From: a virus
Strand: one strand, 5' to 3'
Length of the DNA: 41,402 bases
Virus record (IMG/VR): IMGVR_UViG_3300043468_000395
Location: 1 to 41,402 of that record
The notes under the pieces are model-generated. The model was given only the letters and a program-made list of their open reading frames with translations, did not search any database and had not been told where the DNA came from. Below are positions 6,832 to 39,771 of this stretch, piece by piece (the first letter of the stretch is position 1; each line of letters starts with the position of its first letter). A program made the position numbers and the translations under genes.

Positions 6832-8613
6832 ATGCCCACCGTCCCTACGTCATTCGTGCCACAGGTCGCCCCGCAGGGTGGGGGCGACATCGGCCAGTTC
6901 CAGGCACCCGGCATCGCGGCCGCGGAGAACCTCGCAGGGCCGCAGATCGCCCGTTTCGGGCAGGCGATGGTCGGGGCGGGCAATCAGGCGTTCCGGCTCG
7001 GCTCGGCCATTCAGGACGGCATTGACGAGGCTGCGACCAAGGAGGCCGACGTGGCCGCCGGCAGGGCCATGCAGCAGGTCGCCGACAAGTACCTCGCCAC
7101 CGTGGGCAAGACGGCGGAAACGTCGTTTGAGGCGGCGCAGGCCGAACTGGCGCAGGCGGCCGCGGGGGCCGCCGACATGCTCCAGAACGACACGCAGCGG
7201 CGCATGCTGACGCCGATCCTGTCGCGGAACATGGGGGTGTTCCAGAGCCGGATGGCCCAGCACCGGGTGCAGCAGGTCAAGGTCTACCAGACGAACGAGT
7301 CGGTGGCCCGTGCCGAGTTGAGCGCGGACTATGCCATCCAGGCTTACGCGCAGCGCGGCGAGAAGGACGCCGAGGGCCGACCCATCGGGCTGATCCGCTA
7401 CGCGGCCAACGCCGACACGGCCGTCGCCGAGATCCGCAAGGCCGGCGAACTCATGGGGTACGCGCCGGATTCGGCGCAGATGAAGCAGCTGGAGCAGAAG
7501 GTCTACGACCGTATGGCGGTCGGGATCGTGAACTCCATGATGATCCAGAAGGAATACGGGCAGGCCGACGATTTCCTGTCCGATCCCGGCACGGCCCAGA
7601 CGCTCGACGCCAAGACGCTGTCCGCGCTGCGGGAGTCTGTGACCGCCAACCAGCAGAAGTCGGTGGTCGGGGAACTGGCGTCGAGCATCATGGAGACGGG
7701 GCTGCTCATGGCAAAGAGCGACCCCAAGACCTACTGGCAGCAGAAGGACGGGCCTGTCGAACCCCCGTTCACGCTGCGCGAGGCGCTTGACCTGTCCGAG
7801 CAGATCAAGGACGATGACACCCGCAAGTACGTGCAGAACGAACTGCGGACCCGCTACGCGCAGGAGGACGCGCTCATCGACCGCGAGTACGGGACGCTCA
7901 TCGACAACATCGAGCAGTTCCTTGCGGTCCCCGGCAACTCTCTCGCCGACGTGCCGCCCGACCAGTTCGGCCGGCTGCGGCCCGTGGACAGGCAGAAGTT
8001 CTTGCGCGGCCAGCGCGAGCAGGACGAATTGACGGTCATGGAGCAGGTGGCGCGCAACCCGTCACTCGTGGCAGATGGCGATTGGCTTGAGCGCAACCGC
8101 AGCAAGATGACGCACGCCACGTTCGTGAAGCTGCTCGCCGACCGCAGCAAGCCCGACCGTATCCTATCGGCGACAATCGACGCTGACCAGCTTGAGGCCA
8201 CGCTGACGCGCAATGGGTTCGACACGCTTGCCGCACCTCCACGCGGCGACAAGCAGGCCGCCGAGCAGTCGTTGTTCCTGCGCGACAACGTCAAGACCAT
8301 GATCGATGCCGAGCAGGCCAGAGTCGGTCGCGCCCTGTCGCGCACCGAGAAGCAGGCCATCATGGACCGCGCAATCCTCGACAAGGTCTACGTGCAGCGG
8401 TCGTGGCGCCGTGATCCGCAAGTTCCGTTCTCGGCGCTTGGTCCGGACGAATTGCAGCAGGCATACGTCACGGTCGGGAACGCCGACGTGATGATCCGAG
8501 ACATTCCCGAGCGGCGCATCATGCAGATCCGCAACGCGCTTGAGCGCGCCGGACTCCCGACCGACCTCAAGAGCATCGCGGACACGTGGGTCCGCGCAGG
8601 CAAGCCTCAATGA
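6832..8613 (+). CDS. Internal virion protein, T7 gp15-like
   Basis: A 593-residue, mainly helical protein rich in Ala, Gln and Glu, with no signal peptide. It starts MPTVPTSFVPQVAPQGGGDIGQ. It includes ENLAGPQIARFGQAMVGAGNQAF near residue 30, then long helices (ATKEADVAAGRAMQQVADKY). Such second-position ejection proteins in T7-like operons form the periplasmic tube. An AAAGGA site lies upstream. Its stop overlaps the start of the giant gene in an ATGA, indicating coupled translation. Confidence 0.7.
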   Translation: MPTVPTSFVPQVAPQGGGDIGQFQAPGIAAAENLAGPQIARFGQAMVGAGNQAFRLGSAIQDGIDEAATKEADVAAGRAMQQVADKYLATVGKTAETSFEAAQAELAQAAAGAADMLQNDTQRRMLTPILSRNMGVFQSRMAQHRVQQVKVYQTNESVARAELSADYAIQAYAQRGEKDAEGRPIGLIRYAANADTAVAEIRKAGELMGYAPDSAQMKQLEQKVYDRMAVGIVNSMMIQKEYGQADDFLSDPGTAQTLDAKTLSALRESVTANQQKSVVGELASSIMETGLLMAKSDPKTYWQQKDGPVEPPFTLREALDLSEQIKDDDTRKYVQNELRTRYAQEDALIDREYGTLIDNIEQFLAVPGNSLADVPPDQFGRLRPVDRQKFLRGQREQDELTVMEQVARNPSLVADGDWLERNRSKMTHATFVKLLADRSKPDRILSATIDADQLEATLTRNGFDTLAAPPRGDKQAAEQSLFLRDNVKTMIDAEQARVGRALSRTEKQAIMDRAILDKVYVQRSWRRDPQVPFSALGPDELQQAYVTVGNADVMIRDIPERRIMQIRNALERAGLPTDLKSIADTWVRAGKPQ

Positions 8614-11600
8614 TCGAGCCAGACATCAACGAACGCATGGCCCGGTTCGCACCTTCGCAGAACATGGGTGATCCCGGCGACGATGCCATTGAGCGCGCTG
8701 TTGCCGGGATGGCCGGGGTGCCGGCGCGCCCGCAGTTCGAGCAGGATGCTGACATCGACGCCGCCGTGCTCCAAATCGCAGGCGAGCGACGGCAGGATAT
8801 GGCCGCATCGCTGATGGCCGCATCGCAGGTCAATCCTGACCAGGCTGCGCGTGCGAGCAAGCTCGGCGAGCAGTTCGGGGTTGGGCAGGACATCGCGCTC
8901 CGCAACATGCAGGAGCTCGAGCGCGAGGCCACCGTGCGCGACATCCAGCGCATGGACTTGATGCGGAATGATCCCGTGCTTGCGCGCTACCTGTCCGACC
9001 GTGCGTTCGCGTCCGAGGCGCAGGACGATGTCGGGGTGCTCTCCAAGCTGCGGCCGCTCGTCATGGAGGCCGCGCTCATCAGCGCGTTCGGACCCGCCCC
9101 GATCCTGAAGCGCGGGTTCGAGCGCGGGTCATTGGTCGCGGAACGCGGCGACATCGGCACCAAGGCGATGGCCGGGTTCACGACGCAGGCCGACTTCGAC
9201 CGCGTGAAGCAGATCGAGGAGGAGATGCGGACGCTCGGGCAGATGGGCATCCTCGGCACGACGGCCGAGATGGTCGGCCAGAACGTGGCGCAGCTTCGGA
9301 CCATCGGCACCACGGCCGCCGCCGGCGCTGGCGTAGGCAGTTTCTTTGGGCCTGCGGGCACCGTGATCGGAGGCGGGATCGGCGCGACCGCGGGCGTCGT
9401 TGGCTCCACGGCATCGATGGAGGCCGGGAACCTGTACCTCGACCTGCGGGACGAGGGCGTGAGCGATGACACGGCGATCCCCACCGCAATCGCGGGCGGG
9501 TTCTTGAATGGCGTGATCGAGGTCGCCGGCATGAAGATCGCCGCCAAGCCGTTTCAGGCGTTGGCGAAGCGCGTCATGGCCGAGGCCGTGTCGGACGCCA
9601 TCAAGAAGCCGACGATGCGCGCTGCGCTTGCCGCGGCCGGCAAGGGCTACCTGATGCAGGTCGGGGCCGAGGGCGCAGAGGAAGCGTTGCAGGAGACGGT
9701 CATCATCGCGGGCGAGGAAATCGCCAAGGCCGTCGAAGGGGTGGACAGCGAGACGGGCATGCGGCAGGCGGTGGATCGCGTGCTCGAGTCGTTCATGTAC
9801 GGGGCGATGGGTGCGTCGATCCTAGGCGGCGTCGGCCCGGGCGCGAACCTGTTCGTGGACCTGCGGCGGTCCTCCAACAGCGAGCGGCAGCAGCGGTTCT
9901 TCGAGGGGCTTGCGGCCAACGGCAAGGAAAGCAGACTTGCCCAGCGCAGCCCGGTCGGATACGAGCGTTTCCTTGCGTCGCAGGCAGAGGGCACGACGGC
10001 CGAGACGATCTACGTGGACGGACGAATCGCGCAGCAGGTGCTCGCGCAGAGCGGCGTCCCCACGGCGCAGCTCGAGGAGATCCTCCCGGGAATCCGTGAG
10101 CGCATTTCGGAGGCCGTTCAGACGGGCGGCGACGTGACGATCCCCACGGCGCGGTTCTGGGCGCGGCTGGCGAACACGGAACTTGGGAACGCGCTGCTGC
10201 CGCACATGCGGCTGTCGCCCGACGCCATGAGCGCGACGGAGGCGCAGGAGTTTGCCACGCGCCGGCAGGAGGTCGTGCGCGAGGCCGAGCAGATTCTGGC
10301 GCAGAAGCAGGAGGCCGACGCGACGTTCGTGCAGCAGGCGCGGCAGATCGAGGACACGCTCGCCTCGCAGATCGTGGCGACCGGGCAGATGGACGAGAAG
10401 GCGGCTCGCTCAAGCGCGCAGTTCATGCGCGACTTCTACGTCACGCAGGCGGCGGCGTTGGGCATGTCACCGCAGCAGGTGTACGAGCGTTTCCCGGTGC
10501 GCGTGGAGGGCGCGATGCCGGGAACTGCGGCTGCGCCGATGGCCCAAGCAGCCCAGAAGACACTTGCGGATGTTGAGAAGGCATTTGCCGAACTCAACGT
10601 TGAGCAGCGTTTGACGGAAACGGATACGGCAATTCGTCCTGGAATTATTCGTGTTCCACAAGAACTGCGAGCGCAAGGACGCGCAACAAACGCGATGCAA
10701 CAGCTGATCGCATATGCCGATCAGGTCGGCAAGCGTATTGATGTTTCACCAACTGCGGAGTTTGGAGCGAACAAAAAGCGATTGGTGGAGTGGTACAAGA
10801 GCCTTGGCTTCGTTGAGAACAAAGGACGAAACAAGGACTTTGCTATCAGCGCGACTATGTACCGCGTTCCGCAGCCTGCCGCGCCCGGCGTCATGGAGCA
10901 GGCGGCGACGATGGACGCCGAGTACATGGCGGCCGTCGAGCGCGGCGACATGGCAACGGCGCAGCGCATGGTGGACGAGGCAACGGCGGTCACTGGATAC
11001 ACAGAAAGCGGGATGCACGGACTTTCGCGTGGAAAACTCGTTGGGAATCAATTTGACCCCAAGCTGCTCGGTAGCAACACTGGGGCGGCAAGCGCGAAAT
11101 TGGGATTCTTCTTTGGGTCAAAAGCAACGGCGGCAACGTATGCATTTGACATTGATCCAGTGGCCGCCCGCAAGCATTCCAAAAAGTTGCAGTCATTGTG
11201 GAAGCAGCTAACTGACAAAATTCCAGAACAATACCGGTATCTGTTGACGGGTTCGATGCAGATAGAGTCAGATCGTGGGCCGGATGCATTCTTCCCAACG
11301 GCAGATCCAGATCAGACCGGAGAGCAAGTTGCGTTTGACGCCGAGGAGTATTACGGCCGTCTTGGCGATGGGGCGATGTTCGCGCAAGAGGACATCATGG
11401 GCATCGCCGACCTTATGTCTGCTAAAGACGGTCAAAGACTGAATGAATACGTAGAGAACAAATGGATTCCTATGTGGATGTCTGCTCTTGATGTTGCGAT
11501 GAGCGAGGTGCAATCCACAGACGCATCGATATTGAATGTCAAACTGAAGATGCAGAATCCATTGGTGTTTGACTTCAAGGGAAGTCGATACCGCGATGTG

Positions 11601-14600
11601 TCATATGCACAAATCATCAGTAGAGCGAAAGAACAAAATCACGATAGCGTCATTCTGAAGAACACCTATGACGGGGGTGGGCTTGATGACATCAAGGTCG
11701 TTTTTTCTCCCGAGCAAATCAAGTCCGCCGACCCCGTCACCTACGACGAGGCCGGCAACGTCATCCCGCTGTCCCGCCGCTTCGACGTCACCAGCCCGCT
11801 GATCTTTGAGCAGGCGGCGATGTCCACACGTGTCCCAACGGCAGTAAAGCCGATTGAGGATGCGCTCAACGATGTCCTTCTCGCTGATTTCCCGTCGTTC
11901 CTGCGCGACGAGAAGTTCGTATCCAAGAACCTTGCCAAGTTCAAAGAGCTGAACGCGCCCATCCGCATCGATCCAAATGCGACGGATCAGCAGCAGCTTG
12001 AGCAGATCATCGAGCACATGACGAGCAATCTGCTGTGGCTGCATGATGCGATGGATCCGGCCATCCGCGAGCGGGCACGCATGTGGTACGTGGGCGGCCG
12101 CCGGCTTGTGGATTGGCTGGCAGAACGCCACGGCATGTCGCCGATGGGCGCAGCGACCGTGTTCGCTGTGCTGTCCCCGCAGAAGAACTGGTATGAAAAC
12201 GTCGGACTTGGAATCCGCATTACCGACATCGTCGCAACCCAGGGCGATGCCACGATGGACGCGGATATGCAGGCAGCCTATTTGTCTTCACTCCGCAAGG
12301 AGGTCACCAAGAAGGAAGGCCAGCTCGCCAAGCAGAACGATGCCAAGCCGAAGCGCGGGAAGGATGCGCTTGCGGAATGGGAAAAGAAGCGATCCAGCAT
12401 CGCAGACGAATTGAAGGCAGCGCAAGACAAGGTCGCCGAAGCGCAGGGAAACATTGATGCCATCGGGAACCGGACGTTGGCACAACTGCTTCGGGACCGA
12501 GATTTCTTTCTGGCAGCCATCATGGTGCGATGGTTCGACCAGACAAAGAACGACCGCACCTACCCGGTCATCAGCCCGGAAGGCGGCGTTGGCTCGCCGA
12601 TGCTCACCGAGGCTGGGACGCCTGCGAGCATCAGATACGGCAGTTACAACGAGGTTGCAAAGGCCATTTCGGCTTACGTTGACGGTCGCGCCGAAAACGT
12701 CCACTACCTCATCGGCGGCGAGCACAAGGTCCGCAACTTCTACAACAACCTGTTCAACCCGGAAGATCCGCGTTTCGCGACCATTGATACCCATGCCATT
12801 GCTGCCGCCTACCTGATGCCGCTTGCCGGCACGGACAAGCTGGTGCAGCACGGACTTGGCGGCGGGGTCGGCAATGCCATGTTCGGCATGGGGGGCGGTT
12901 ATGCGGTGTTCTATGAGGCGTATCGCCGTGCTGCGGAAGCACGTGGGATCCAGCCGCGTGAGATGCAGTCGATCACCTGGGAGGCGATTCGCGGCATGTT
13001 TGAGGCCGCGATGAAGGGCGGCCTCAAGGCTCCTGTCGCCGCCACATGGAAGCGATACGTGGACGGCGAGATCGACATTGATGCCGCACGTGCCGACGTG
13101 ATGCAGCGTGCCGGTGGAATCACCACGCCATCGTGGGTGGCACTCCCGATGGACATGGAGCCGACAGCAGGCTACGAGGGTGTGTCGCGCACAGCAGCTG
13201 ACGAACAGGCGGAACGTATTGCGGCGCAGCCAACGGCTGCATCGGTGATGTTTGAGGTCGCGCCGGATCCTGCGGATGTGAATCTTGTCAAGCGATGGAA
13301 AGCGTTGTCTCCGCAGCAGCGCCAAGCAATCAGCGTGCGCGTGGCAGAGGACATTGTCCCGCGCATTCTTCGCGAGTATGGCGTAGCAGCCGACATGGTC
13401 ATGCAGGTCGGCGGGTGGGAGGGCGCAACGAACGTCGGATTCGCGTTGCGAATGCCTCCCGGCCCGCTGGTTCGTCAGATTGCACAGGCAGTTGGATACG
13501 CGCTCTCGCAGCAGGCTGTGTTCACGTTGTCTGCGACGGAGTTCCAAGGGTCAACGAAATCAGACATCGTTGTGCTCCAATTGCAGCCGGGAACGACGGT
13601 TGAACAGATCGGCGACTTGTACGAAAAGAAGCTGTTTCCGCTTGGCGTCCAAGGTCAAGCCACGGTGCAGGACGCCATGATTATTAGTCTTGACCCTGGT
13701 GTTGATGGGGCTATACTTGCCAATACAATCGCGACGGCCGTAGCCGGCGATGGCCGTATCGTTGAGATCACTCATGCAACCGGATGGAGATCGCTTGATG
13801 AAACCCGAATCACAGAAGAAGCCGCCCGTGCGGCAGATGAAGGACGGCGAGCTGAAGGCGCTGCTGGGAGACGGCGTGTTGATGCTTACCGCCGCGAGGC
13901 CACGCGCCTCGTCGCCGAATACCTCGGAACCGGAATCCTTGAGCAGGCCGCCGTCGGCCCCGCCCGCGGCGGGTTCGACCCGAAGCGACTGACCACGATC
14001 CTCAACAAGACGGCAGACCTTTCCACGTTCCTGCACGAGTCGGCGCACGCCTTCCTGACGTTCTACGAGCAGGTCGCCGCCACGCCCGACGCCCCGGCGC
14101 GCATCGTCAACGACATGGACGAGCTGCTGCGGTGGTTCACGATCGACGGCGCCACGCCTGCCGAGCGCATCGCCAACTGGAACGGGCTGACGCTTGACCA
14201 GAAGCGCAAGTACCACGAGACGTTCGCGTACAACTTCGAGGTCTACCTGTTCGACGGCAAGGCGCCGAGCACGGAGATGCAAGGGCTGTTTGAGCGGTTC
14301 AGCGCGTGGCTCAAGCGCGTCTACCGTTCGATCCGCGATGACCTGAACGCGATCTACCGCCGCGAGTTCGGGGAGGATCTGCCGATCCTGACGGGCGAGG
14401 TGCGCCAGGTCATGGACCGCATGCTCGCCACCGACGAGCAGATCAAGCGGCAGGCCGCCATAAACGAGATGAAGCCGCAGTTCCAGACGCAGGAACAGAG
14501 CGGCATGGACGATGCCGAGTGGGCCGCCTACCAGGCGATGCAGCAGGAGGCCATCGAGGCGTCCGTGACGGACATGAACAAGGCGAGCATGCGCCAGCTC

Positions 14601-17600
14601 CAGTGGCTGGGCAACGCCCGCAGCCGCATCCTGCGCGACATGCAGAAGAAGCACGACGCCAAGCGCAAGGAGGTGGCCGCCGAGGTGGCCGCCGAGCTGC
14701 GCGTGGAGCCCGTGTACCGCGCCATGACCTACCTGCGGACGGGGAAGTTCATCGACGTGGACGGCGCCGAGGTCACGGTGGAAGGTCCGCACCGCCTCGA
14801 CACGAAGCGCGTGCAGGCGATCTACGAGAACCTGCCGACCGAGAAGGCGATGGAGGCCGTCCGTGCCACGGGAATGGCGATTGGCACGGTGTTCGCGCCC
14901 GACATCGCCAAGCTCGGCACGGGCAAGTACGGGATGCTCGGCGTGGACGGGCTGGACCCGGACGTGGTCGCCGAGACGTTCGGCTTCGGCAGCGGCGACC
15001 AAATGATCCGCGCCCTGCTCGCGGCCAAGCCCATGAAGGAGGCGGTCGCCGAGCGCACGGACGCCGAGATGCTGCGTCGGTTCGGGGACATGAACACCCC
15101 CGAGGCGCAGGAGGCCGAGGTGCAGAAGGCGCTCCACAACGAGGCCCGCGCCCGGTTCGTGGCCGTGGAGCTGCGGCACGTGGCCCGCGCCACCGAGCCC
15201 GTGCGCGTCATGCTCGAGGCCGCCAAGCAGGTCGCCCGGGAACTCATCGCCGGCATGACCCTGCGGGAAGTGCGCCCCGCCGACTTCATTGCCGCCGAGG
15301 CCCGGGCCGCCCGCGACGCCGGCCGCATGGGGACCACGGTCAACCCGGAGGCCGTGGGGCAGGCAGCACAGACGAGGGCGTATAACGAGGCCATTGACGC
15401 CGGGACGGACCCGGCCGAGGCGATGGCGGCAGCCATTGAGAAGGGCGCAGAGGCGGCTAGGAAGGCCCAGGAGCGATCCGACGCCCTGAAGGCGCAGTAC
15501 GGGGCCGACCCGCAGCAGGCGCTCATTAGGGCCAAGCGGGCGCAGCTGTATCAGAACCAGCTCGCCGCCGAGGCGCTTCGGGTCCGGGAGGAGGTCGCCA
15601 AGCAGGTCAAGTACCTGCGGCGCATCCTGCGGGACACCAACGTCAAGGCGATGGGCGCGCAGGCGGCCGACCAGGTTGCCGCCCTCCTCGAGCGGTTCGA
15701 GGTGGCCCCGGTCAGCCTCAAGCGGCTGGACGAGCGCAAGGCGTTGGCGGCATGGCTCGCCGAGCAGGAGGCCGCCGGCCTGGTGCCCGACATCGCGCCG
15801 GAGGTCGCCGACGAGGCCCGCCGCGTCAACTACCAGCAGCTCACGGTGGCCGAGTTCCGCGACCTCGTGGATGCCATCCGGCAGATCGAGTTCATCGGGA
15901 AGAACGAGCGCAAGGTGCAACTCGCCGCCGAACGCGCCGCCTACGAGGAGAAGCGGGACGAGATCGTCACCCGCATCCGGGCGGTGGGCCGCCTGCGCGG
16001 GGTCAAGTTCGACCCTCGCAGCCCGCTCACCAACATTGGCCGTTCTGCCGCCGCCCTGCGCGGGTTCGCTGCGCAGCACCTGAAGGCGGCGTCGGTCGCA
16101 CGCATTCTGGACGGCGGCGAGGACGATGGCCCGCTGTGGACGTTCGCCATCCGGTCGGCCAACGCGGCCGCCGACATGGAGACGCGCATGCGCGCCGAGG
16201 CGTCGGCCAAGCTCGCCGAGATTCTGGCCCCGGTGTTTGCGCTCGGGAACATGGGCGGCAAGGGCGTGTTCTTCCCGTCCATCAACATCAGCCTAAACCG
16301 CGAGGCGCGGATCGCCATCGCCATGAACGTCGGCAACGACGGCAACCGCCAGCGCCTGCTCGACGGCGAGGGCTGGACGATGGAGCAGGTGCAGCCCGTC
16401 CTCGAGAGCCTGACCGAGGCCGAGTGGAAGGCCGTGCAGCAGGTGTGGGACTACATCGACACCTACCGCCCGCTCATCGCCGAGAAGGAACGCCGGCTGT
16501 ACGGCAAGGAGCCGGAATGGGTCAAGCCGACGCCGTTCACGACGCGCACCGCTGACGGACGCGAGGTGCGGCTCGAGGGCGGCTACTACCCCATCAAGTA
16601 CGACCCGGTGGCGAGCCACCGCGTGGCGACGTTGAACGAAGTCAAGGAGGCCAAGCGTGCGCTTGACGGCGCGTACACCGCCGCCACCACGCAACGTTCT
16701 TTCACAAAGGCACGCGCTGTCAAGCCCGATATCGGGCCGCTGCTTTACACGCTCGACGCGGCGTTCGGCGGGATCAACGACGTGATCCACGATCTGTCGT
16801 GGCACGAGTGGCTGATCCAGACGCAGCGCCTGCTGCGCGACCCTGAATTCAAGACCGCCGTCACCGAAACGCGGGGACCGGAGTTCCTAAAGCAGCTCAA
16901 AGATTGGGCCAATGACAATGCCGCCGGCGAGCGCAAGATCGGGGTCGCTGGCGAGGCGGCGCTGTCGTGGCTGCGGCAGGGCATCAGCGCGTCGGGCCTT
17001 GGGTTCAACGTGGTAAGCGCGGCCATGCAGGTCACTGGCTTCAACCAGAGCATCGTGCGCCTCGGGGCCAAGTACGTCGGGCGCGGCGTCGCGCAATTCG
17101 CGGCGTCTCCAATCGACACGGCGCGCATGGTCGCCGACAAGTCCTCGTTCATGGCCGAGCGCGGGCGCACGCAGTTCCGCGAGATCAACGAGATCCGCAA
17201 CCGCGTCCGAGGCCAGACCGAGGTGGCCCGCCGGGTCACGTCGGGCACCTACTTCCTGATGATGAACATGCAGCGCACGGTGGACATCCCCACGTGGCTG
17301 GCCGGCTACCAGAAGGCGCTCGACGCCGGGAAGGACGATGCCACGGCGGTGGCGCTCGCCGACCAGGCGGTGCGAGACACGCAGGGCAGCGGCCTCATCT
17401 CCGATCTTGCCGCCATCGAGCGCGGCGGCCCGGTGATGAAGCTGTTCACGGTGTTCTACTCGTACATGAACACCGTCTACAACATGACGGCCGTGCAGAC
17501 GATGACGGCGCGCAGCAAGGGCAAGTTGGCCGCCGACTACGCCATGCTGCTCGTGGTCCCCGTTGTGCTCGGGCAAGCAATCAAGAACCTCATCCAGCCC

Positions 17601-17987
17601 GACGCCGGGGACGATGAACTCGACCCCGAGGCACTGGCCCGCAAGCTGGCGGCCGAGGAACTGTCGTTCCTGATGGGGACGATGGTGATCGCCCGCGAGT
17701 TCGGCGGGGCGGCGCAGCTCCTGACAGGCGCCGAGGGCGTCCGCATGGGTTACGGCGGGCCGGCAGGCCTGCGGGCCGTGGGCGAGGTCTACGGGCTCGC
17801 CACGCAGGCAGGTCAGCTCGAGTTCGACCGTGCGTTCAGGCGGTCGGCGATCAACACGCTCGGCGCGTTCACGGGCCTGCCGAGCGCGCAGGTCAACCGC
17901 ACCATCGACGGCATCGAGGCGGTCATCGAAGGCGAGGTTGAGGGCGTCGGCGCGGTGGTCGCGCCGCTCACCGGGGTGCAACGCTAG
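8610..17987 (+). CDS. Giant polyvalent internal virion protein (gp16-like, 3125 aa)
   Basis: I chose the ATG at 8610 because it overlaps the previous stop (ATGA); an in-frame GTG exists at 8586. Visible segments: Gly/Ala membrane-like stretch, residues about 230-273; GNAT-like acetyltransferase segment, about 655-755, with RAQGRATNAM; ADP-ribosyltransferase-like segment, about 795-1045 (MHG at 802, LGFFF, VILKNTYDGGG, FSPEQIKSA); coiled coil, about 1227-1287; HhH-glycosylase-like motif with K1373 and D1393 (ATIDTH); zincin with HESAH at 1809-1813 and a later HETFAYNFE; then long helical ejection-protein sequence with a hydrophobic segment, about 2975-2995. By family knowledge such polyvalent proteins travel in the virion and act early in the host. 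The GNAT/ART stretch (about 10560-11720) is clearly less GC-rich than its flanks, suggesting an acquired cassette. Multi-domain roles are inferred from motifs only. Confidence 0.82.
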   Translation: MIEPDINERMARFAPSQNMGDPGDDAIERAVAGMAGVPARPQFEQDADIDAAVLQIAGERRQDMAASLMAASQVNPDQAARASKLGEQFGVGQDIALRNMQELEREATVRDIQRMDLMRNDPVLARYLSDRAFASEAQDDVGVLSKLRPLVMEAALISAFGPAPILKRGFERGSLVAERGDIGTKAMAGFTTQADFDRVKQIEEEMRTLGQMGILGTTAEMVGQNVAQLRTIGTTAAAGAGVGSFFGPAGTVIGGGIGATAGVVGSTASMEAGNLYLDLRDEGVSDDTAIPTAIAGGFLNGVIEVAGMKIAAKPFQALAKRVMAEAVSDAIKKPTMRAALAAAGKGYLMQVGAEGAEEALQETVIIAGEEIAKAVEGVDSETGMRQAVDRVLESFMYGAMGASILGGVGPGANLFVDLRRSSNSERQQRFFEGLAANGKESRLAQRSPVGYERFLASQAEGTTAETIYVDGRIAQQVLAQSGVPTAQLEEILPGIRERISEAVQTGGDVTIPTARFWARLANTELGNALLPHMRLSPDAMSATEAQEFATRRQEVVREAEQILAQKQEADATFVQQARQIEDTLASQIVATGQMDEKAARSSAQFMRDFYVTQAAALGMSPQQVYERFPVRVEGAMPGTAAAPMAQAAQKTLADVEKAFAELNVEQRLTETDTAIRPGIIRVPQELRAQGRATNAMQQLIAYADQVGKRIDVSPTAEFGANKKRLVEWYKSLGFVENKGRNKDFAISATMYRVPQPAAPGVMEQAATMDAEYMAAVERGDMATAQRMVDEATAVTGYTESGMHGLSRGKLVGNQFDPKLLGSNTGAASAKLGFFFGSKATAATYAFDIDPVAARKHSKKLQSLWKQLTDKIPEQYRYLLTGSMQIESDRGPDAFFPTADPDQTGEQVAFDAEEYYGRLGDGAMFAQEDIMGIADLMSAKDGQRLNEYVENKWIPMWMSALDVAMSEVQSTDASILNVKLKMQNPLVFDFKGSRYRDVSYAQIISRAKEQNHDSVILKNTYDGGGLDDIKVVFSPEQIKSADPVTYDEAGNVIPLSRRFDVTSPLIFEQAAMSTRVPTAVKPIEDALNDVLLADFPSFLRDEKFVSKNLAKFKELNAPIRIDPNATDQQQLEQIIEHMTSNLLWLHDAMDPAIRERARMWYVGGRRLVDWLAERHGMSPMGAATVFAVLSPQKNWYENVGLGIRITDIVATQGDATMDADMQAAYLSSLRKEVTKKEGQLAKQNDAKPKRGKDALAEWEKKRSSIADELKAAQDKVAEAQGNIDAIGNRTLAQLLRDRDFFLAAIMVRWFDQTKNDRTYPVISPEGGVGSPMLTEAGTPASIRYGSYNEVAKAISAYVDGRAENVHYLIGGEHKVRNFYNNLFNPEDPRFATIDTHAIAAAYLMPLAGTDKLVQHGLGGGVGNAMFGMGGGYAVFYEAYRRAAEARGIQPREMQSITWEAIRGMFEAAMKGGLKAPVAATWKRYVDGEIDIDAARADVMQRAGGITTPSWVALPMDMEPTAGYEGVSRTAADEQAERIAAQPTAASVMFEVAPDPADVNLVKRWKALSPQQRQAISVRVAEDIVPRILREYGVAADMVMQVGGWEGATNVGFALRMPPGPLVRQIAQAVGYALSQQAVFTLSATEFQGSTKSDIVVLQLQPGTTVEQIGDLYEKKLFPLGVQGQATVQDAMIISLDPGVDGAILANTIATAVAGDGRIVEITHATGWRSLDETRITEEAARAADEGRRAEGAAGRRRVDAYRREATRLVAEYLGTGILEQAAVGPARGGFDPKRLTTILNKTADLSTFLHESAHAFLTFYEQVAATPDAPARIVNDMDELLRWFTIDGATPAERIANWNGLTLDQKRKYHETFAYNFEVYLFDGKAPSTEMQGLFERFSAWLKRVYRSIRDDLNAIYRREFGEDLPILTGEVRQVMDRMLATDEQIKRQAAINEMKPQFQTQEQSGMDDAEWAAYQAMQQEAIEASVTDMNKASMRQLQWLGNARSRILRDMQKKHDAKRKEVAAEVAAELRVEPVYRAMTYLRTGKFIDVDGAEVTVEGPHRLDTKRVQAIYENLPTEKAMEAVRATGMAIGTVFAPDIAKLGTGKYGMLGVDGLDPDVVAETFGFGSGDQMIRALLAAKPMKEAVAERTDAEMLRRFGDMNTPEAQEAEVQKALHNEARARFVAVELRHVARATEPVRVMLEAAKQVARELIAGMTLREVRPADFIAAEARAARDAGRMGTTVNPEAVGQAAQTRAYNEAIDAGTDPAEAMAAAIEKGAEAARKAQERSDALKAQYGADPQQALIRAKRAQLYQNQLAAEALRVREEVAKQVKYLRRILRDTNVKAMGAQAADQVAALLERFEVAPVSLKRLDERKALAAWLAEQEAAGLVPDIAPEVADEARRVNYQQLTVAEFRDLVDAIRQIEFIGKNERKVQLAAERAAYEEKRDEIVTRIRAVGRLRGVKFDPRSPLTNIGRSAAALRGFAAQHLKAASVARILDGGEDDGPLWTFAIRSANAAADMETRMRAEASAKLAEILAPVFALGNMGGKGVFFPSINISLNREARIAIAMNVGNDGNRQRLLDGEGWTMEQVQPVLESLTEAEWKAVQQVWDYIDTYRPLIAEKERRLYGKEPEWVKPTPFTTRTADGREVRLEGGYYPIKYDPVASHRVATLNEVKEAKRALDGAYTAATTQRSFTKARAVKPDIGPLLYTLDAAFGGINDVIHDLSWHEWLIQTQRLLRDPEFKTAVTETRGPEFLKQLKDWANDNAAGERKIGVAGEAALSWLRQGISASGLGFNVVSAAMQVTGFNQSIVRLGAKYVGRGVAQFAASPIDTARMVADKSSFMAERGRTQFREINEIRNRVRGQTEVARRVTSGTYFLMMNMQRTVDIPTWLAGYQKALDAGKDDATAVALADQAVRDTQGSGLISDLAAIERGGPVMKLFTVFYSYMNTVYNMTAVQTMTARSKGKLAADYAMLLVVPVVLGQAIKNLIQPDAGDDELDPEALARKLAAEELSFLMGTMVIAREFGGAAQLLTGAEGVRMGYGGPAGLRAVGEVYGLATQAGQLEFDRAFRRSAINTLGAFTGLPSAQVNRTIDGIEAVIEGEVEGVGAVVAPLTGVQR

Positions 17988-32225: not shown

Positions 32226-33020
32226 TCATTCGGTGCAGTCGCAGGGGATGGTTGTGTCATCAAGGTGCTGGAACAGTTCACCCTGCACCGTAATTTGCGT
32301 GAGCAACTGGTGATACGTCGGCCGATCCTTTCGGAACTTGGCCCCGATTGCCTGTTCCTGTTGCGCCCACCATGCTGCGCGACTGGGCTCGGCGCGGATC
32401 ACTCGTTCGATTCTGGCGCTACCTTTGAGGAAACACAGGTCGCAGTTACCGAAGGCCGGATCGTCGTTTGGGAGGGCAAGGTCAAATGGCTGCTGCTTCC
32501 ACCAGGCAACGATGGTTTCACGGTCCACGCCAGCGTCTGCAAGCGGCATGGCGATGTCGCGGGTCGGGTCCGAGCGCAGCTTGGCGACCCGGCGCGGCTC
32601 GTCGGCGCGCAGGCCAAGCACGGAGGTGAAGTCTCCGTACCCATTGTCGGACATGAACTTCTGCATCGGGATGACCTTTAGGTCGCTGGTGCAGAATCTT
32701 GCGATGGGATTGGGGAGGTAATTGCGCTTTGCGATCAGGGCCGCAAATGGCTCCCCGTTCCTGCTGGCCGTGTCCGGTCGCACGAGGTTGTATCCAAACG
32801 GCGACCATTCGATCCAAGTAATCACGCACCATTCGCGCCCGATCCGTTCCACGAACTCGTAGGTGGCGTCGTGTTCTTTTCCTGTGTTAGCAAACAGGAC
32901 ATGGCCGCCTTTAGGAAGTTCCCCGCCCCAAGCATCCAGCACATGGCGCAGCAGATATGCGCTGGTTCTGCCGCCGCTGAACGACACGTAGAACGGCGGT
33001 TCAATGCGATATGGGTTCAT
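32226..33020 (-). CDS. PAPS-reductase-like (PP-loop) phage protein
   Basis: A 264-residue protein. SFSGGRTSAYLL (residues 13-24) is the PP-loop nucleotide-binding motif; RFCTSDLKVIP, LGLRADEPRR, GNCDLCFLKG and the terminal CDCTE are conserved in the phage PAPS-reductase-like family and supply possible metal-binding Cys residues. Relatives include PAPS reductases (sulfate assimilation) and DndC (DNA phosphorothioation); which applies is not clear from sequence. I start at 33020 because a TATACT box lies 7 bases upstream (33033-33028) and there is no Shine-Dalgarno site. Confidence 0.8.
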   Translation of the reverse strand: MNPYRIEPPFYVSFSGGRTSAYLLRHVLDAWGGELPKGGHVLFANTGKEHDATYEFVERIGREWCVITWIEWSPFGYNLVRPDTASRNGEPFAALIAKRNYLPNPIARFCTSDLKVIPMQKFMSDNGYGDFTSVLGLRADEPRRVAKLRSDPTRDIAMPLADAGVDRETIVAWWKQQPFDLALPNDDPAFGNCDLCFLKGSARIERVIRAEPSRAAWWAQQEQAIGAKFRKDRPTYHQLLTQITVQGELFQHLDDTTIPCDCTE

Positions 33021-33027
33021 ACTGGCG

Positions 33028-33033
33028 AGTATA
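33028..33033 (-). promoter_or_regulatory. -10 box 7 bases before the PAPS-reductase-like ATG
   Basis: TATACT on the minus strand, 7 bases before the ATG at 33020. The -35 region is weak (TGACCA at 18 bases). No Shine-Dalgarno site in between. Confidence 0.5.
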
Positions 33034-33120
33034 TCCATGTGACGAGTTCGCTGGTCATGGCGCAAAGTGACTACAGAACTACACAGGTGGAGCGGATTCG
33101 CTCACATACGAACGAAACGA

Positions 33121-33144
33121 AACAGCCCCGCGTAGGTGGCTGTT
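33121..33144 (-). terminator. Backup terminator hairpin after the small-RNA array
   Basis: Minus-strand stem AACAGCC/GGCTGTT (33144-33121) with a 10-base loop, followed by TCGTTTCGTTC. It lies just beyond the stronger terminator at 33175-33196. Confidence 0.45.
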
Positions 33145-33164
33145 CGCACAGTCACATTTCTGCT

Positions 33165-33232
33165 AAAAAAGCAAGCCGCTCGCGTCAACGAGCGGCCCGC
33201 AAGACCTTCGAATCCCTGCCCGGGATGATGGC
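33165..33232 (-). ncRNA. Candidate small RNA C (~68 nt)
   Basis: Starts about 7 bases after a promoter at 33239-33266 and ends at a terminator: stem GCCGCTCG (33196-33189) with CGAGCGGC (33182-33175), 6-base loop, then TTGC and TTTTTT (33170-33165). A 5' hairpin ATCCC/GGGAT is also possible. There is no start codon with a credible ORF. It is the best supported of three consecutive units. Confidence 0.62.
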
Positions 33233-33238
33233 TGCGAA

Positions 33239-33266
33239 AGCATACCTCGCGTCACATGTTTGTCAA
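33239..33266 (-). promoter_or_regulatory. Promoter of small RNA C
   Basis: Minus strand TTGACA (33266-33261), a 16-base spacer and TATGCT (33244-33239). The -35 box is consensus and the -10 box matches 4 of 6. Confidence 0.62.
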
Positions 33267-33406
33267 ACAAACTCGCCGCGGATCTTGCGATCGACGCGGC
33301 GAGCTTCCGGGGGCAGAAGAAGGTGCCGTCCGTGGCACCAGGTGTCCGGTCGCGCCGCGCTTGGCGGCACATGCCGCCTCGCCTCGTCAGAGAGGCACGC
33401 CAGACG
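33264..33406 (-). ncRNA. Candidate small RNA B (~143 nt)
   Basis: Starts after a TATAGT box (33418-33413) and ends at stem CTCGCCGCG (33303-33295) with CGCGGCGAG (33280-33272), 14-base loop, then TTTGTTTG. The body holds further stems, such as GGCGGC-ATGT-GCCGCC and GGTGCC-ACGGAC-GGCACC. The -35 is weak, so this unit is less certain than C. Confidence 0.45.
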
Positions 33407-33412
33407 GGGGGC

Positions 33413-33440
33413 ACTATACCTTGAAACAGAACACCCGCAA
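33413..33440 (-). promoter_or_regulatory. Possible promoter of small RNA B
   Basis: Minus strand TTGCGG (33440-33435), 16-base spacer, TATAGT (33418-33413). The -35 matches 3 of 6 and lies inside the terminator hairpin of unit A. Confidence 0.4.
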
Positions 33441-33518
33441 GCGAACTTGCGGGTGCCTGCAAATTTTGCTCGCAGTCGGCGACAAGGTCGCTATGCTGCG
33501 GCCAGCACATTCAAACGC
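33424..33518 (-). ncRNA. Candidate small RNA A (~95 nt)
   Basis: Begins after a TTGCCC-N16-TACAAT promoter (33552-33525). Ends at a 10-bp stem, CACCCGCAAG (33455-33446) with CTTGCGGGTG (33441-33432), TTCG loop, then TTCTGTTTC. No credible ORF. Confidence 0.52.
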
Positions 33519-33524
33519 GCTTGC

Positions 33525-33552
33525 ATTGTAGCGAACGTGCCTTCAGGGGCAA
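33525..33552 (-). promoter_or_regulatory. Promoter of small RNA A
   Basis: Minus strand TTGCCC (33552-33547), 16-base spacer, TACAAT (33530-33525). The boxes match 4 of 6 and 5 of 6. Confidence 0.5.
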
Positions 33553-33937
33553 CAATGCCGCAGGACGCTCCCGGCGCGGTAGGGGAGCAGGGATGTAGAC
33601 GCGGGCCCGAGTGACCCTAGCCCGCGCCACCGAAAGGTGCGCTCACCCACGATTGCAGCGGCTGGCAGTCCCCCAGCGAAATGGTGAAATTCGTGGCATC
33701 GACCGAAAGCGCGGCTCCGTGCGGGCTGGTTGATCGTGGCCCCATTGCGGGGTCACGCTCCCTCTGCGCTCACCATGCGAACTGAACGCCCTGCCGGCGG
33801 CGGCTGCCCCTGCGACGAAACCCTGCGACGAAACCCTGCGGCGGCTCCGGCTCGGGAAGAACACCTACATAAAGATCCGAACCGATCTCTTCCCGAACGT
33901 CGGGCCACGCCGCGACGCCGGCACCCGCCCTGCATCG
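33553..33937. other. Hairpin-rich noncoding region
   Basis: 385 bases without a credible gene. It holds stems GCGGGC/GCCCGC (33601-33625), CACC-GAAA-GGTG (33628-33639, a GNRA tetraloop if read rightward), a GGCCCC/GGGGTC stem (33738-33753), CCCGA/TCGGG near 33893-33905, and a 13-base tandem repeat. It may be a leader, part of a larger structured RNA, or an origin. Confidence 0.5.
33811..33840. repeat. 13-base tandem repeat
   Basis: TGCGACGAAACCC at 33811-33823 and 33824-33836, followed by a third partial TGCG. Inside the noncoding region. Confidence 0.85.
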
Positions 33938-33965
33938 TTGACGCAGGAAGGCCGACCTGTATACT
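33938..33965 (+). promoter_or_regulatory. Promoter with leaderless start
   Basis: TTGACG (33938-33943), 16-base spacer, TATACT (33960-33965). The next gene's ATG is at 33973, 7 bases after the -10 box, with no Shine-Dalgarno site. Transcription would begin at or next to the ATG. Confidence 0.72.
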
Positions 33966-33972
33966 TGCTCGT

Positions 33973-34425
33973 ATGACAACCCCGACCTTCCTCGAGAACA
34001 TGGCGCTGGTGGCCGAGTTGTGGCCGAAGTTTCAGATGGACAAGGCGCTGCGCGACATCGTGTACGAGAAGTGGCAGGCGCTCCACCAGGACAAACTCCG
34101 CGACTGCATCCGCCAGCATCGCCTCGAGCGCGACTCGAAGCCTGACATCGCCGCGATTCACAAGAAGTACTGCGCGATCACCGGGCAGGATCGACCGACC
34201 AACATCCCCGACGCCTCGCGCACGCGCCGGCAGGCCGACCGATGCGTGGGCCCGACGCCCGAGGAGCTCGAGGAATGGGAAGCGTGGGCCGAGGAACTGC
34301 TCGCCACCGCAAGCGACGCCGAGATTCGCGAGGTGCACGAACGGCTCGGGCTCACGTTCACGGCGCGACGGTTCCTCGCCATCGCCGTCGAGTACTGTCG
34401 GAAGAATCCGCCGCTCGTTCGGTAG
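33973..34425 (+). CDS. Leaderless-type early protein, function unknown
   Basis: A 150-residue helical protein starting MTTPTFLENMALVAELWPKF. Charged, with Trp-rich helices (EELEEWEAWAEELLATASDAEIREVHERLG). The start is set by the promoter at 33938-33965; an in-frame start at 33730 would run through the noncoding region. No recognised family. First gene of the rightward block leading to the terminase. Confidence 0.62.
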   Translation: MTTPTFLENMALVAELWPKFQMDKALRDIVYEKWQALHQDKLRDCIRQHRLERDSKPDIAAIHKKYCAITGQDRPTNIPDASRTRRQADRCVGPTPEELEEWEAWAEELLATASDAEIREVHERLGLTFTARRFLAIAVEYCRKNPPLVR

Positions 34426-35114: not shown

Positions 35115-35368
35115 CGCGCCTCGTCGCCTACGGCGAGAACGGGCGCCGGGTAGGGGAAAGCCACCACCATGCCACGATCCCGCAAGCCATCGTCGATGAA
35201 ATCCGCGAACTCCACGAGGACCACGGATGGGGCTACCGCCGCATCGCAAAGCACCTCGGGCTCGCCTGGTACACCGTCGCCAAGATCGCGAAGTACCAGC
35301 GCCGCGTCGCCGTCCCCCGCCGATGGGAGCGCATCCCCGAAGCGACCGAGGGGCCGACCGCGGCTTGA
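35111..35368 (+). CDS. HTH protein upstream of terminase
   Basis: An 85-residue protein, GTG start in a GTGA overlap. VDEIRELHEDHGWGYRRIAKHLGLAWYTVAKIAKYQRR is a clear helix-turn-helix (resolvase/HTH-38 type). It overlaps the terminase small subunit by 200 bases in another frame, which is unusual. Confidence 0.62.
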   Translation: MTRLVAYGENGRRVGESHHHATIPQAIVDEIRELHEDHGWGYRRIAKHLGLAWYTVAKIAKYQRRVAVPRRWERIPEATEGPTAA

Positions 35369-35744
35369 GAAGGCACCGGAACCATTCGCCAGCGAGATAC
35401 TTGCGTGGCTTACAAAGGGCAAGACCCTGCTGTCATTCTGCGAGCAACCAGGTAAGCCGACCCGGCAGACCGTGATGCTTTGGCTGGAGGCGGACGAGGA
35501 ATTTGCTTGTCACTACAAGGCGGCCCGCGAGCAGGGGCAGGAGGCCATGCTCGAGCGGTGCGAGGAGATCGCCGACATCGAGCCGGAAACGCCCGTGCAG
35601 GCCACGTGGCGCAAGTACCAGATCGACACCAAGCTCAAGATCCTCCGCATGACGAACCCCGCCAGGTATGCCGAAAAGGTGTCCGTGGATCATGGCGGCG
35701 GCGTGACCTTGAACGTCATCACGGGCGTCCCGGATGCCAACTGA
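35169..35744 (+). CDS. terS: Terminase small subunit
   Basis: A 191-residue protein. From about residue 59, RPRGRPRLEKAPEPFASEI, LLSFCEQPGKPTRQTVMLWLEAD and AREQGQEAMLERCEEIADIE match the phage small terminase family, which binds DNA and starts packaging. The first ~55 residues are Ser/Pro/Arg-rich and lie out of frame over the HTH gene, so they may not be real. No canonical start codon exists between residue 10 and the conserved region. See findings. Confidence 0.72.
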   Translation: MPRSRKPSSMKSANSTRTTDGATAASQSTSGSPGTPSPRSRSTSAASPSPADGSASPKRPRGRPRLEKAPEPFASEILAWLTKGKTLLSFCEQPGKPTRQTVMLWLEADEEFACHYKAAREQGQEAMLERCEEIADIEPETPVQATWRKYQIDTKLKILRMTNPARYAEKVSVDHGGGVTLNVITGVPDAN

Positions 35745-37059
35745 AACGGTGCGCCTGAACTACGCGCCCAGGGCGTGGCAGAAGCGGTGCCACCTCGAGC
35801 GCAAGCGGTTCACGGTCCTCGCCCTGCACCGACGAGCCGGCAAGACCGAGCTCGCCATCATGGAGCTCCTCGACAAGGCCATCAAGTTCAAGGCCGAACT
35901 GGGGTTCTTCGTCTACGTGGCGCCATACCTCAAGCAGGCCAAGGCCATCGCATGGGCGCGCCTCAAGTCCAAGATCGACCCATTCATCCGCACCGCGGCC
36001 GTAGACGTGAACGAGGCCGATCTAGCCGTGACGTTCAAGCACAACAAAGCCACCATCCGCCTGTTCGGCGGCGACAACCCCGACGCCCTGCGCGGCGTCC
36101 GACTCGACGGATGCGTGATTGACGAGGTCGCCCAGATCAAGCCAGAGGTCTGGAACGACATCATCCAGCCCGCCCTCTCCGACCGCAAGGGCTGGGCCAT
36201 GTTCATCGGCACGCCCGCAGGCATCAACCTGTTCAGCGAGCTGTTCTATCGCGCAGGCAGCCTGCCGGATTGGTATGCGGCCCGGTATACGGTCCACGAC
36301 ACCGACGCGCTCGACCTTGACGAGGTCGCTCGCCTTCAGCGCGACATGCCCGAGCAGGCGTTCGCACGCGAGTACCTGTGCGACTTCAGCGCCGCGGGCG
36401 ATGACCAGCTCATCAGCCTGTCCGACGCCGACAACGCCGCCGAGCGCGAGTACCAGGACGGCGACGTGATCGACGCCCCGCTCGTCATCGGCGTGGACCC
36501 GGCACGGTTCGGGGATGACCGCAGCGCCATCGTCCTGCGGCAGGGGCTCCGCATGGAGAACCCGCGAATCTATACGGGCATCGACAACATGGCACTGGCG
36601 GCGGCCGTCGCCAACGTCATCGAGGAGCGCGACCCGGACGCCGTGTTCATCGACGCGGGCGCCGGCGCGGGCGTGATCGACCGCCTGCGCCAACTTGGCT
36701 ACGAGGTCACCGAGGTTCCGTTCGGCGGCAAGGCCACCTTCCCGAACCTGTTCGTGAACAAGCGCACCGAGATGTGGTGGGCCATCAAGGAATGGATCGA
36801 CCAAGGCGGCTCGATCCCCGACCGCACCGACCTGAAGCAGGAACTGTCCACCCCGCTGTACTGGTACGACAACGTGGGTAAGCGCGTCCTCGAGTCCAAG
36901 GACGAGGTCAAGAAGCGCCTGCAAGGCGGCGGCAGCCCCGACATCGCCGACGCGCTCGCGCTCACGTTCGCCTACCCGGTCGCCAAGATGCTGCCTCGAG
37001 AGGTGCGCGAGAAGCTGTCGCCGCGCCGCGAGGATCACGACCCATACGAGGACATGTGA
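35734..37059 (+). CDS. terL: Terminase large subunit
   Basis: A 441-residue packaging motor. Walker A HRRAGKTE (32-39), Walker B-like GCVIDEV (126-132) and a C-terminal nuclease with VIGVDPARFGDDRS (D255), VFIDAGAGAG (D307) and a late PDIADALA Asp. The order and length match BPP-1-type large terminases. It overlaps terS by 11 bases and is followed by a TACCCGTA element. Confidence 0.93.
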   Translation: MPTETVRLNYAPRAWQKRCHLERKRFTVLALHRRAGKTELAIMELLDKAIKFKAELGFFVYVAPYLKQAKAIAWARLKSKIDPFIRTAAVDVNEADLAVTFKHNKATIRLFGGDNPDALRGVRLDGCVIDEVAQIKPEVWNDIIQPALSDRKGWAMFIGTPAGINLFSELFYRAGSLPDWYAARYTVHDTDALDLDEVARLQRDMPEQAFAREYLCDFSAAGDDQLISLSDADNAAEREYQDGDVIDAPLVIGVDPARFGDDRSAIVLRQGLRMENPRIYTGIDNMALAAAVANVIEERDPDAVFIDAGAGAGVIDRLRQLGYEVTEVPFGGKATFPNLFVNKRTEMWWAIKEWIDQGGSIPDRTDLKQELSTPLYWYDNVGKRVLESKDEVKKRLQGGGSPDIADALALTFAYPVAKMLPREVREKLSPRREDHDPYEDM

Positions 37060-38058: not shown

Positions 38059-39771
38059 GTGAGCCAGTACACCGGAGACGCATCCTCGTACCCCAACGCG
38101 CCCACGCGGGATCGGCTGTTCACCCGCTGGGGCCAGCTCAAGAGCGAGCGCGCCTCCTGGTACGCACACTGGCAGGAACTCACGTCGTACATCCTGCCGC
38201 GCAACGGCCGCTACTTCGTGCAGGACCGCAACCGCGGCTACCGCCGGCACAACAACATCTACGACAACACCGGGACGCGGGCGCTCCGCACGCTCGGCGC
38301 TGGCATGATGTCGGGAGCAACGAGCCCCGCACGCCAGTGGTTCCGGCTCGCCACGCCCGACCCCGAGCTGAACTCGTTCACGCCCGTGAAGTTGTGGCTT
38401 GATGACGTGACCAAGCGCATGCAGCGCGTGTTCCAGAAGTCGAACACCTACCGCAGCCTGCACCAGATGTACGAGGAACTGGGCACGTTTGGAACGTCAG
38501 CGAGCATCATGCTCCCGGACTTCCAGGACGTGATCCACCACTACCCGCTGACGTGCGGCGAGTACTGCATTTCGACCGACGCCAAGGGCCGCGTCTGCAC
38601 GCTGTACCGCGAGTTCGACATGACCGTCTCGCAGATGGTCAAGGAGTTCGGGCTCGAGAACTGCTCCGTGAGCGTGCAGAACATGTACCGCACGGGCAGC
38701 CTCGACCAGTGGGTGCCAGTCATCCATGCCATCGAGCCGCGGGCCGACCGCGACATCGGCAAGCGCGACAGCAAGAACATGCCGTTCGGGTCGTGGTACT
38801 TCGAGGTCGGCGGCGAGGACGGGCAGTTCCTGCGCGAGAGCGGGTTCATGCAGTTCCCGGCGCTCTGCCCGCGCTGGTCCGTGGTCGGCGGCGACATCTA
38901 CGGGAACAGCCCCGGCATGGAGGCGCTCGGCGACATCAAGCAGCTCCAGCACGAGCAGCTCCGCAAGGCGCAGGCCATCGACTACCAGACCAAGCCGCCG
39001 CTCCAGGTGCCGGCCGCCATGAAGAACCGCGACGTGGAAACGCTCCCGGGCGGGATCTCGTACTACGACGGCGCATCGAACGGGATCAAGACCGCGTTCG
39101 AGGTGAACCTGAACCTCCAGTACCTGCTGAACGACATCGTGGACTGCCGCGAGCGCGTCCGCGGCGCGTTCTACGCCGACCTGTTCCTGATGCTGGCGAA
39201 CATGCCGAACACGCGCATGACCGCCACCGAGGTCGCCGAGCGCCACGAGGAGAAGCTCATCATGCTCGGGCCCGTGCTCGAGCGCCTGCACAATGAGCTG
39301 CTTTCCCCGCTCGTGGACATGACGTTCACGCGCATGCTCACGGCCGGCCTGATCCCGCCCGCCCCGCAGGAATTGCAGGGCATGGACCTGAACATCGAGT
39401 TCGTCAGCATGCTCGCGCAGGCGCAGCGCGCCATCGGCACCAACGCCGTGGACCGCTTCGTCGGCAACCTCGGCGCCATCGCGCAGATGAAGCCCGACAT
39501 CCTCGACAAGTTCGACCAGGATCAGTGGGCCGACATCTACGCCGACATGCTCGGCGTGGACCCGTCGCTCATCGTGGCCGACAAGGACGTGGCCCTCCTG
39601 CGCGACGCCCGCAACCGGGCGCTCGCCGCCAAGGAGCAGGCCGCCGTCATGCAGCAGCAGTCGCAGACGGTCAAGAACATGGCGCAGGCGCCCACGCAGG
39701 GACAGAACGCGCTCACCGACGTGGTGAACATGTTCAGCGGCTACAACTCGCCTTCCGCAGTGGAGATTTGA
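38059..39771 (+). CDS. Portal protein (head-tail connector)
   Basis: A 570-residue protein, GTG start with GGAGGG upstream. RLFTRWGQLKSERASWYAHWQELTSYILP, GMMSGATSPARQWFRL, the GTFGTSASIML segment, and NMPNTRMTATEVAERHEEKLIMLGPVLERLHNELLSPLV are the Head-tail_con family of podovirus portals. Forms the dodecameric vertex through which DNA is packed. Confidence 0.93.
   Translation: MSQYTGDASSYPNAPTRDRLFTRWGQLKSERASWYAHWQELTSYILPRNGRYFVQDRNRGYRRHNNIYDNTGTRALRTLGAGMMSGATSPARQWFRLATPDPELNSFTPVKLWLDDVTKRMQRVFQKSNTYRSLHQMYEELGTFGTSASIMLPDFQDVIHHYPLTCGEYCISTDAKGRVCTLYREFDMTVSQMVKEFGLENCSVSVQNMYRTGSLDQWVPVIHAIEPRADRDIGKRDSKNMPFGSWYFEVGGEDGQFLRESGFMQFPALCPRWSVVGGDIYGNSPGMEALGDIKQLQHEQLRKAQAIDYQTKPPLQVPAAMKNRDVETLPGGISYYDGASNGIKTAFEVNLNLQYLLNDIVDCRERVRGAFYADLFLMLANMPNTRMTATEVAERHEEKLIMLGPVLERLHNELLSPLVDMTFTRMLTAGLIPPAPQELQGMDLNIEFVSMLAQAQRAIGTNAVDRFVGNLGAIAQMKPDILDKFDQDQWADIYADMLGVDPSLIVADKDVALLRDARNRALAAKEQAAVMQQQSQTVKNMAQAPTQGQNALTDVVNMFSGYNSPSAVEI

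Follow-up and report, generated by a model that had tools for sequence, protein, structure and literature searches.

The interval around positions 33121-33552 is most probably a phage-borne island of small RNA genes located ahead of the packaging and structural operon, with the mechanism that we propose below. In the best reading, an element on the plus strand (U) and two units on the minus strand (A and B) form a conserved core, and a third minus-strand unit (C) is variable. Comparison of sequences establishes the signals, folds, strands, conservation and exchange of the units, whereas their transcription, an action in trans and the roles of CCCCCGGA and U are proposed. Several unknown RNAs appear to be in use among phages of this group.

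The window, i.e. the whole stretch of DNA that was analysed, is the contig of 41,402 bases of virus record IMGVR_UViG_3300043468_000395. A podovirus-type phage fits its gene content, which comprises terminases, a connector, a capsid protein as well as tail and depolymerase-like proteins. A single open reading frame of 3133 codons (8586-17987, plus strand) occupies almost one quarter of the contig. The island is flanked by a PAPS-reductase-like gene on the minus strand and the terminase/structural operon on the plus strand. Because of this position, control of the early operon, which had been considered as a role of the RNAs, is not supported. For an action on the host or on a defence system, the data speak neither in favour nor against. 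The relevant features are:

333-1358: major capsid protein, GP7-type
33113-33143 (about), minus strand: orphan terminator, ACAGCC..GGGGCTGT-TTCGTTTCG
33165-33232, minus strand: unit C, predicted small RNA
33239-33266, minus strand: promoter C, TTGACA-16-TATGCT
33264-33405, minus strand: unit B, predicted small RNA
33305-33313, minus strand: CCCCCGGAA before the terminator of B
33322-33339, minus strand: hairpin GGTGCC-ACGGAC-GGCACC within unit B, with an ANGGAN hexaloop
33413-33440, minus strand: promoter B, TTGCGG-16-TATAGT
33424-33518, minus strand: unit A, predicted small RNA
33470-33497, plus strand: promoter-like site of U, TCGCAG-16-TATGCT
33523-33784, plus strand: element U, predicted structured RNA
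33525-33552, minus strand: promoter A, TTGCCC-16-TACAAT
35169-35744: small terminase, Sf6-like
35734-37059: large terminase
38059-39771: head-to-tail connecting protein

Minus-strand units A and B

Units A, B and C are present as described in the original prediction. A scan for promoters and terminators recovered all three minus-strand pairs with their 16-nt spacers at the expected places, and the lengths of A (~95 nt), B (~142 nt) and C (~68 nt, followed by TTTTTT) were borne out. The same applies to the overlap of neighbouring signals: the -35 box of B is embedded in the 3' arm of the A terminator and that of C in the tail of the B terminator. In the scan, a unit was defined as a promoter with a hairpin and T-rich tail no more than 170 nt behind it. 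Applied to both strands of the whole window (41.4 kb), this definition yielded exactly three units, namely A, B and C. In 100 dinucleotide shuffles of the window the mean was 0.19 units (maximum 2, none in 84 shuffles), a figure that serves as a guide rather than a strict probability, since the units were already known when the whole-window scan was designed, with thresholds that let the weak -35 box of B pass. A stricter, ready-made promoter scan detected the promoters of A and C and missed that of B. All three predicted RNAs fold better than shuffled sequences (z of -3.43 for A, -4.25 for B and -3.43 for C).

The interval as first delimited does contain the units, but, owing to its start at 33121, it also includes a fourth terminator of the minus strand at about 33143-33113, for which no promoter is present in the window. 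The plus strand of the interval is not empty but contains the 5' end of U along with a promoter-like site. We propose that A, B and C are separate minus-strand genes. Each would have a promoter of the sigma-70 type and its own intrinsic terminator, and they follow each other so closely that the -35 boxes of B and C reside within the terminators of A and B, respectively. Most likely, the host RNA polymerase transcribes them separately and without phage factors, and the resulting RNAs most likely act in trans.

For comparison, about 220 loci of relatives (numbered with L) were collected by terminase and PAPS-reductase searches and by three DNA-pattern scans of viral contigs. Conservation and covariation in these relatives support A and B as independent tandem small RNAs of a podovirus, whereas C is recognised by its signals and fold only. 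Among the three, B is favoured most by the comparison with relatives, so that the view of A and C as the stronger units had to be revised.

Unit B is composed of a branched 5' domain, an optional GGA hairpin, an exposed CCCCCGGA and the terminator (hairpin 33303-33272, tail TTTGTTTG). In alignment A1, which contains 26 distinct B sequences, a structure of 36 pairs holds in 99.2% of cells, and 14 of these pairs are changed on both sides (shuffle mean 7.4). With partners slid against each other, pairing amounts to 31-45%. The 5' helix starts at the predicted transcription start site, and its fourth pair is found as A-U, G-C, U-G and C-G among the homologues. Since the 5' domain contains no A-C cells while U-G and G-U cells are present, the minus strand is the RNA strand of B. 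Covariation of the 5' domain extends well beyond the terminator. In the inspected relatives with A directly upstream, the -35 box of B (TTGCGG or TTGCGC) is located inside the 3' arm of the A terminator; where A is absent or farther away, another promoter-like site is found in unrelated DNA at about equal distance. This retention or re-making of the promoter provides good evidence for B as an independent gene.

The most constant stretch of B is CCCCCGGAA, which is invariant in alignment A1. Although each of the 49 distinct B 3' parts has (A/G)CCCCCGGA ahead of its terminator, this constancy is partly built in, because both this set and alignment A1 required CCCCGGA. Fairer evidence comes from the B units of L195, L210 and L213, which were found by the model or by neighbourhood independently of CCCCGGA and share (A/G)CCCCCGGA. 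A search of the phage for a target of CCCCCGGAA gave an exact complement in B itself and no second one. Presumably, the ends of the RNA are shielded by its branched 5' domain and its terminator. These would leave CCCCCGGA exposed, where a host RNA or an RNA-binding protein may make contact. We infer that B acts in trans via CCCCCGGA.

An unlikely alternative is that B serves as a decoy for a host regulator of the CsrA/RsmA type, with the GGA of the hexaloop and a GGA in the linker binding the protein and thereby freeing host mRNAs. The hairpin C-ACGGAC-G of the window fits CANGGANG, the known CsrA/RsmA consensus. An ANGGAN hexaloop hairpin was found in 17 of the 49 distinct B 3' parts, with varying stems and either ACGGAC or ATGGAC as the loop, vs 0.4% in shuffles. 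However, these 17 units are related by descent, and a decoy would be expected to have more than one or two sites. Instead of several GGA hairpin sites kept across the family, there is one in the 17 units and none in the other 32, so that this is not the common function of B. Consequently, the decoy was rejected as the general role, and since two thirds of the distinct B units are devoid of the hairpin, a CsrA-type action would be a side function at best.

Unit A shows a variable 5' end, an inner hairpin, the terminator hairpin (33455-33432) and the tail TTCTGTTT. In 24 distinct A units, the promoter (TTGNNC-16-TACAAT or TAGAAT) and the terminator hairpin are retained, and the length is 85-95 nt throughout. 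Most of these also possess the inner hairpin despite quite different sequence, the likeness being one of fold only. The fold of U does not explain this hairpin, because it is located upstream of the predicted start of U. Like B, A keeps its own promoter and intrinsic terminator in relatives, as would be expected for an independent gene. Nevertheless, A is less firmly supported than B, for which covariation was counted on an alignment. In L144, L153 and L197 a gene is inserted between A and B; the A terminator is retained there and B has its own promoter.

The plus-strand element U

The largest element of the island, U (~262 nt, predicted start near 33504), had been overlooked. U overlaps promoter A, and the same bases, read on the plus strand, contribute to the first hairpin of U. 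The promoter-like site of U lies inside A in divergent orientation and presumably starts U on the plus strand. In most relatives it has a counterpart of the form TTGCA(T/A/G)-15 to 18-TANNNT, a pattern that misses L021, L043, L047, L150 and L156. U was found in 66 viral contigs with B beside most of them, and matches to model R1 likewise place B beside U in most relatives. A related terminase is present in 12 of the 14 contigs tested. In loci reaching far enough, the terminase genes follow ~0.8-2.6 kb behind U in the same orientation, and a variable set of small genes occupies the space in between.

In 31 distinct sequences of U, 65 pairs hold in 97.8% of cells, and 19 pairs are changed on both sides (shuffle mean 9.3, none of 500 shuffles as high). 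Slid partners pair in 32-43%; in this comparison the structure of U is favoured, because it was written by hand on a subset of the 31 sequences, and the double changes are the stronger evidence. The loops vary as in RNA, with GAAA replaced by GCAA and the appearance of UUCG. Of the cells with wobble pairs, 130 are compatible with the plus strand and 16 with the minus strand, hence U is most likely a plus-strand RNA. Our initial assumption of U on the minus strand was ruled out by these counts. The helix ATGGTGA/TCACCAT is a possible pseudoknot with no double changes. The single-fold energy of U is no better than that of shuffles on either strand, and no intrinsic terminator was found behind U. 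The relatives do not refute the original prediction, as they retain the promoter/terminator pairs of the island. Indels of 1, 2 and 4 nt in U, i.e. not multiples of three, ruled out U as a coding sequence.

As for its function, U is most likely a leader or control RNA of the terminase operon that acts in cis or in its neighbourhood. It stands in front of a long operon with the same orientation, as would be the case for an antitermination RNA. A more far-reaching reading, which we regard as rather doubtful, is that U represents a new class of structured phage RNA which, at the head of the late operon, would act on RNA polymerase or packaging. Together with the overprinted A and B it would then form a divergent RNA control unit that is essential to a group of uncultured podoviruses and has exchangeable accessory RNA genes behind it.

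It is highly improbable that the conserved interval is instead a DNA element such as a packaging site, a replication origin or a protein-binding region, the inverted repeats of which mimic RNA genes. The interval does adjoin the terminase genes, it is rich in inverted repeats and strongly conserved, and the outer part of the U helix holding promoter A is almost without wobble pairs. However, DNA palindromes would show no strand bias of wobble pairs, whereas these favour the minus strand in B and the plus strand in U (130 to 16). Moreover, the terminators end in T tracts and the promoters retain their hexamers and spacing. There is also very little probability that U alone matters and that the terminators of A and B, with weak or silent promoters, merely block stray antisense transcription into the minus-strand gene: A indeed overlaps U, with promoter A placed within a U hairpin, but the 5' domain of B covaries well past its terminator, and a B promoter re-made in unrelated DNA would be unneeded for insulation alone.

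Two contigs, L164 (35,279 bases) and L190 (33,816 bases), carry U and/or B and gave no match to the large terminase of the window. Thus, the RNA genes may not be confined to phages with this type of terminase, unless the two contigs are incomplete. In relatives without U (L034 about 3510-3590, L003 about 2890-2990, L024 and L042) another candidate structure occupies its place, in which GGGGCGGG..CCCGCCCC is interleaved with GAGCAGGTGC..GCACCTGCTC, a possible pseudoknot just before a plus-strand gene.

Unit C and the distal end

Unit C ends in a strong terminator (hairpin 33200-33171, then six T) and is restricted, among the relatives, to near-identical contigs of the window lineage. In L021, a TTGACA-16-TATACT promoter is found at the position corresponding to promoter C. 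Behind B, relatives contain either nothing or at least one further unit with a TTGACA- or TTGACG-16-TATACT promoter, which directly follows a terminator of the CAGCCCC...GGGGCTG type in L009, L021 and L043. Units are extra or missing in L008, L009, L014, L021, L043 and L195. The orphan terminator of the window closes extra units in L009, L014, L021 and L043 and is probably the remnant of a further unit. Because of this terminator and the variable units behind B, the distal end looks like a site of gain and loss. The distal units are swapped among relatives, and C is one of several such exchangeable cassettes. This exchange points to a route by which phages gain RNA genes.

A recurring structured unit behind B, CCGTCAGCCGTTGACGG..AGTCGGGAAACCGAC..GCCGAAAGGC, was observed in L009 (2463-2740), L021 (190-365), L043 (about 1190-1350) and L195. 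At the distal end of the array in L022 (about 4060-4110), where others have extra units, there is a short tandem repeat, CGGCAGTGTC, in several copies and variants.

Relation to known RNAs and phages

In Rfam 15, neither the window nor ten relatives scored above the gathering threshold of any family. A weak match to RNAI in a relaxed Rfam search (E 0.11) was judged to be chance. In the named phage and plasmid records searched, the island interval has no counterpart, and 52-base matches to mycobacteriophages (E 0.9) were likewise attributed to chance. By terminase, MW202640 and MW202722 are the nearest named relatives (71%). In both, annotated genes precede the terminase, and the B model found no match in the stretches read. 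The same model gave 0 matches in 301 genomes of the family to which the sole genome assembly with a related terminase belongs, a search that was run without positive control.

Phage small RNAs are usually described singly and from cultured phages. Known small regulatory RNAs of phages and prophages include STnc6030, SprY, Esr41 and sas of P22 (review PMC12197685). Like these, the predicted RNAs are short, phage-encoded and thought to act on host or phage functions. In contrast, the island consists of several predicted RNA genes that are unrelated to one another, follow each other with overlapping terminators and promoters and are conserved over many phages. The words 'tandem' and 'array' are absent from the text of the review (PMC12197685). 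In a partial coverage of the literature, no close case came up for small RNAs of phages in tandem, for CsrA decoys from phages or for put RNA.

Phage morons, as described, are single protein genes that lie between phage operons and carry a promoter and a terminator of their own. The units of the island are similarly self-contained, located between two operons and gained or lost among relatives, but they are predicted RNA genes, and U, A and B form a conserved core. Bacteria also have small RNA genes in tandem, for example LhrC in Listeria and CcsR in Rhodobacter, which are copies of a single RNA in each case. The island shares with them the arrangement of several small RNA genes in a row, whereas A, B and C are mutually unrelated. 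The sequence comparison with the bacterial RNAs was made through Rfam. The put RNA of HK022 functions in antitermination. With ~262 nt, U is longer than put and shorter than GOLLD and ROOL. The latter two are large phage-linked RNAs (PMC12286853). U resembles these RNAs in that it precedes a long phage operon, as put does, or in being a large conserved structured RNA with invariant loops, but it differs by its intermediate length and the absence of an Rfam match. Thus, the island, its overlapping layout and its RNA families appear to be new, while phage small RNAs and structured leader-like RNAs are already known as kinds.

The island is a conserved yet still changing set of unrelated, predicted RNA genes in phages that have no cultured member in the collections searched. 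For U and B, covariation is sufficient for usable structure models. If the RNAs are expressed, an RNA-based takeover of the host or control of the operon becomes testable.

On either side of the island, TATACT boxes (33018-33033 on the minus and 33960-33975 on the plus strand) end just 7 nt before an ATG, which predicts leaderless mRNAs for both flanks. The likely start of the PAPS-reductase-like gene is 33020 rather than the TTG at 33065, and the first plus-strand gene starts at 33973. The same arrangement of TATACT and ATG as in the window is found in L009 and L195.
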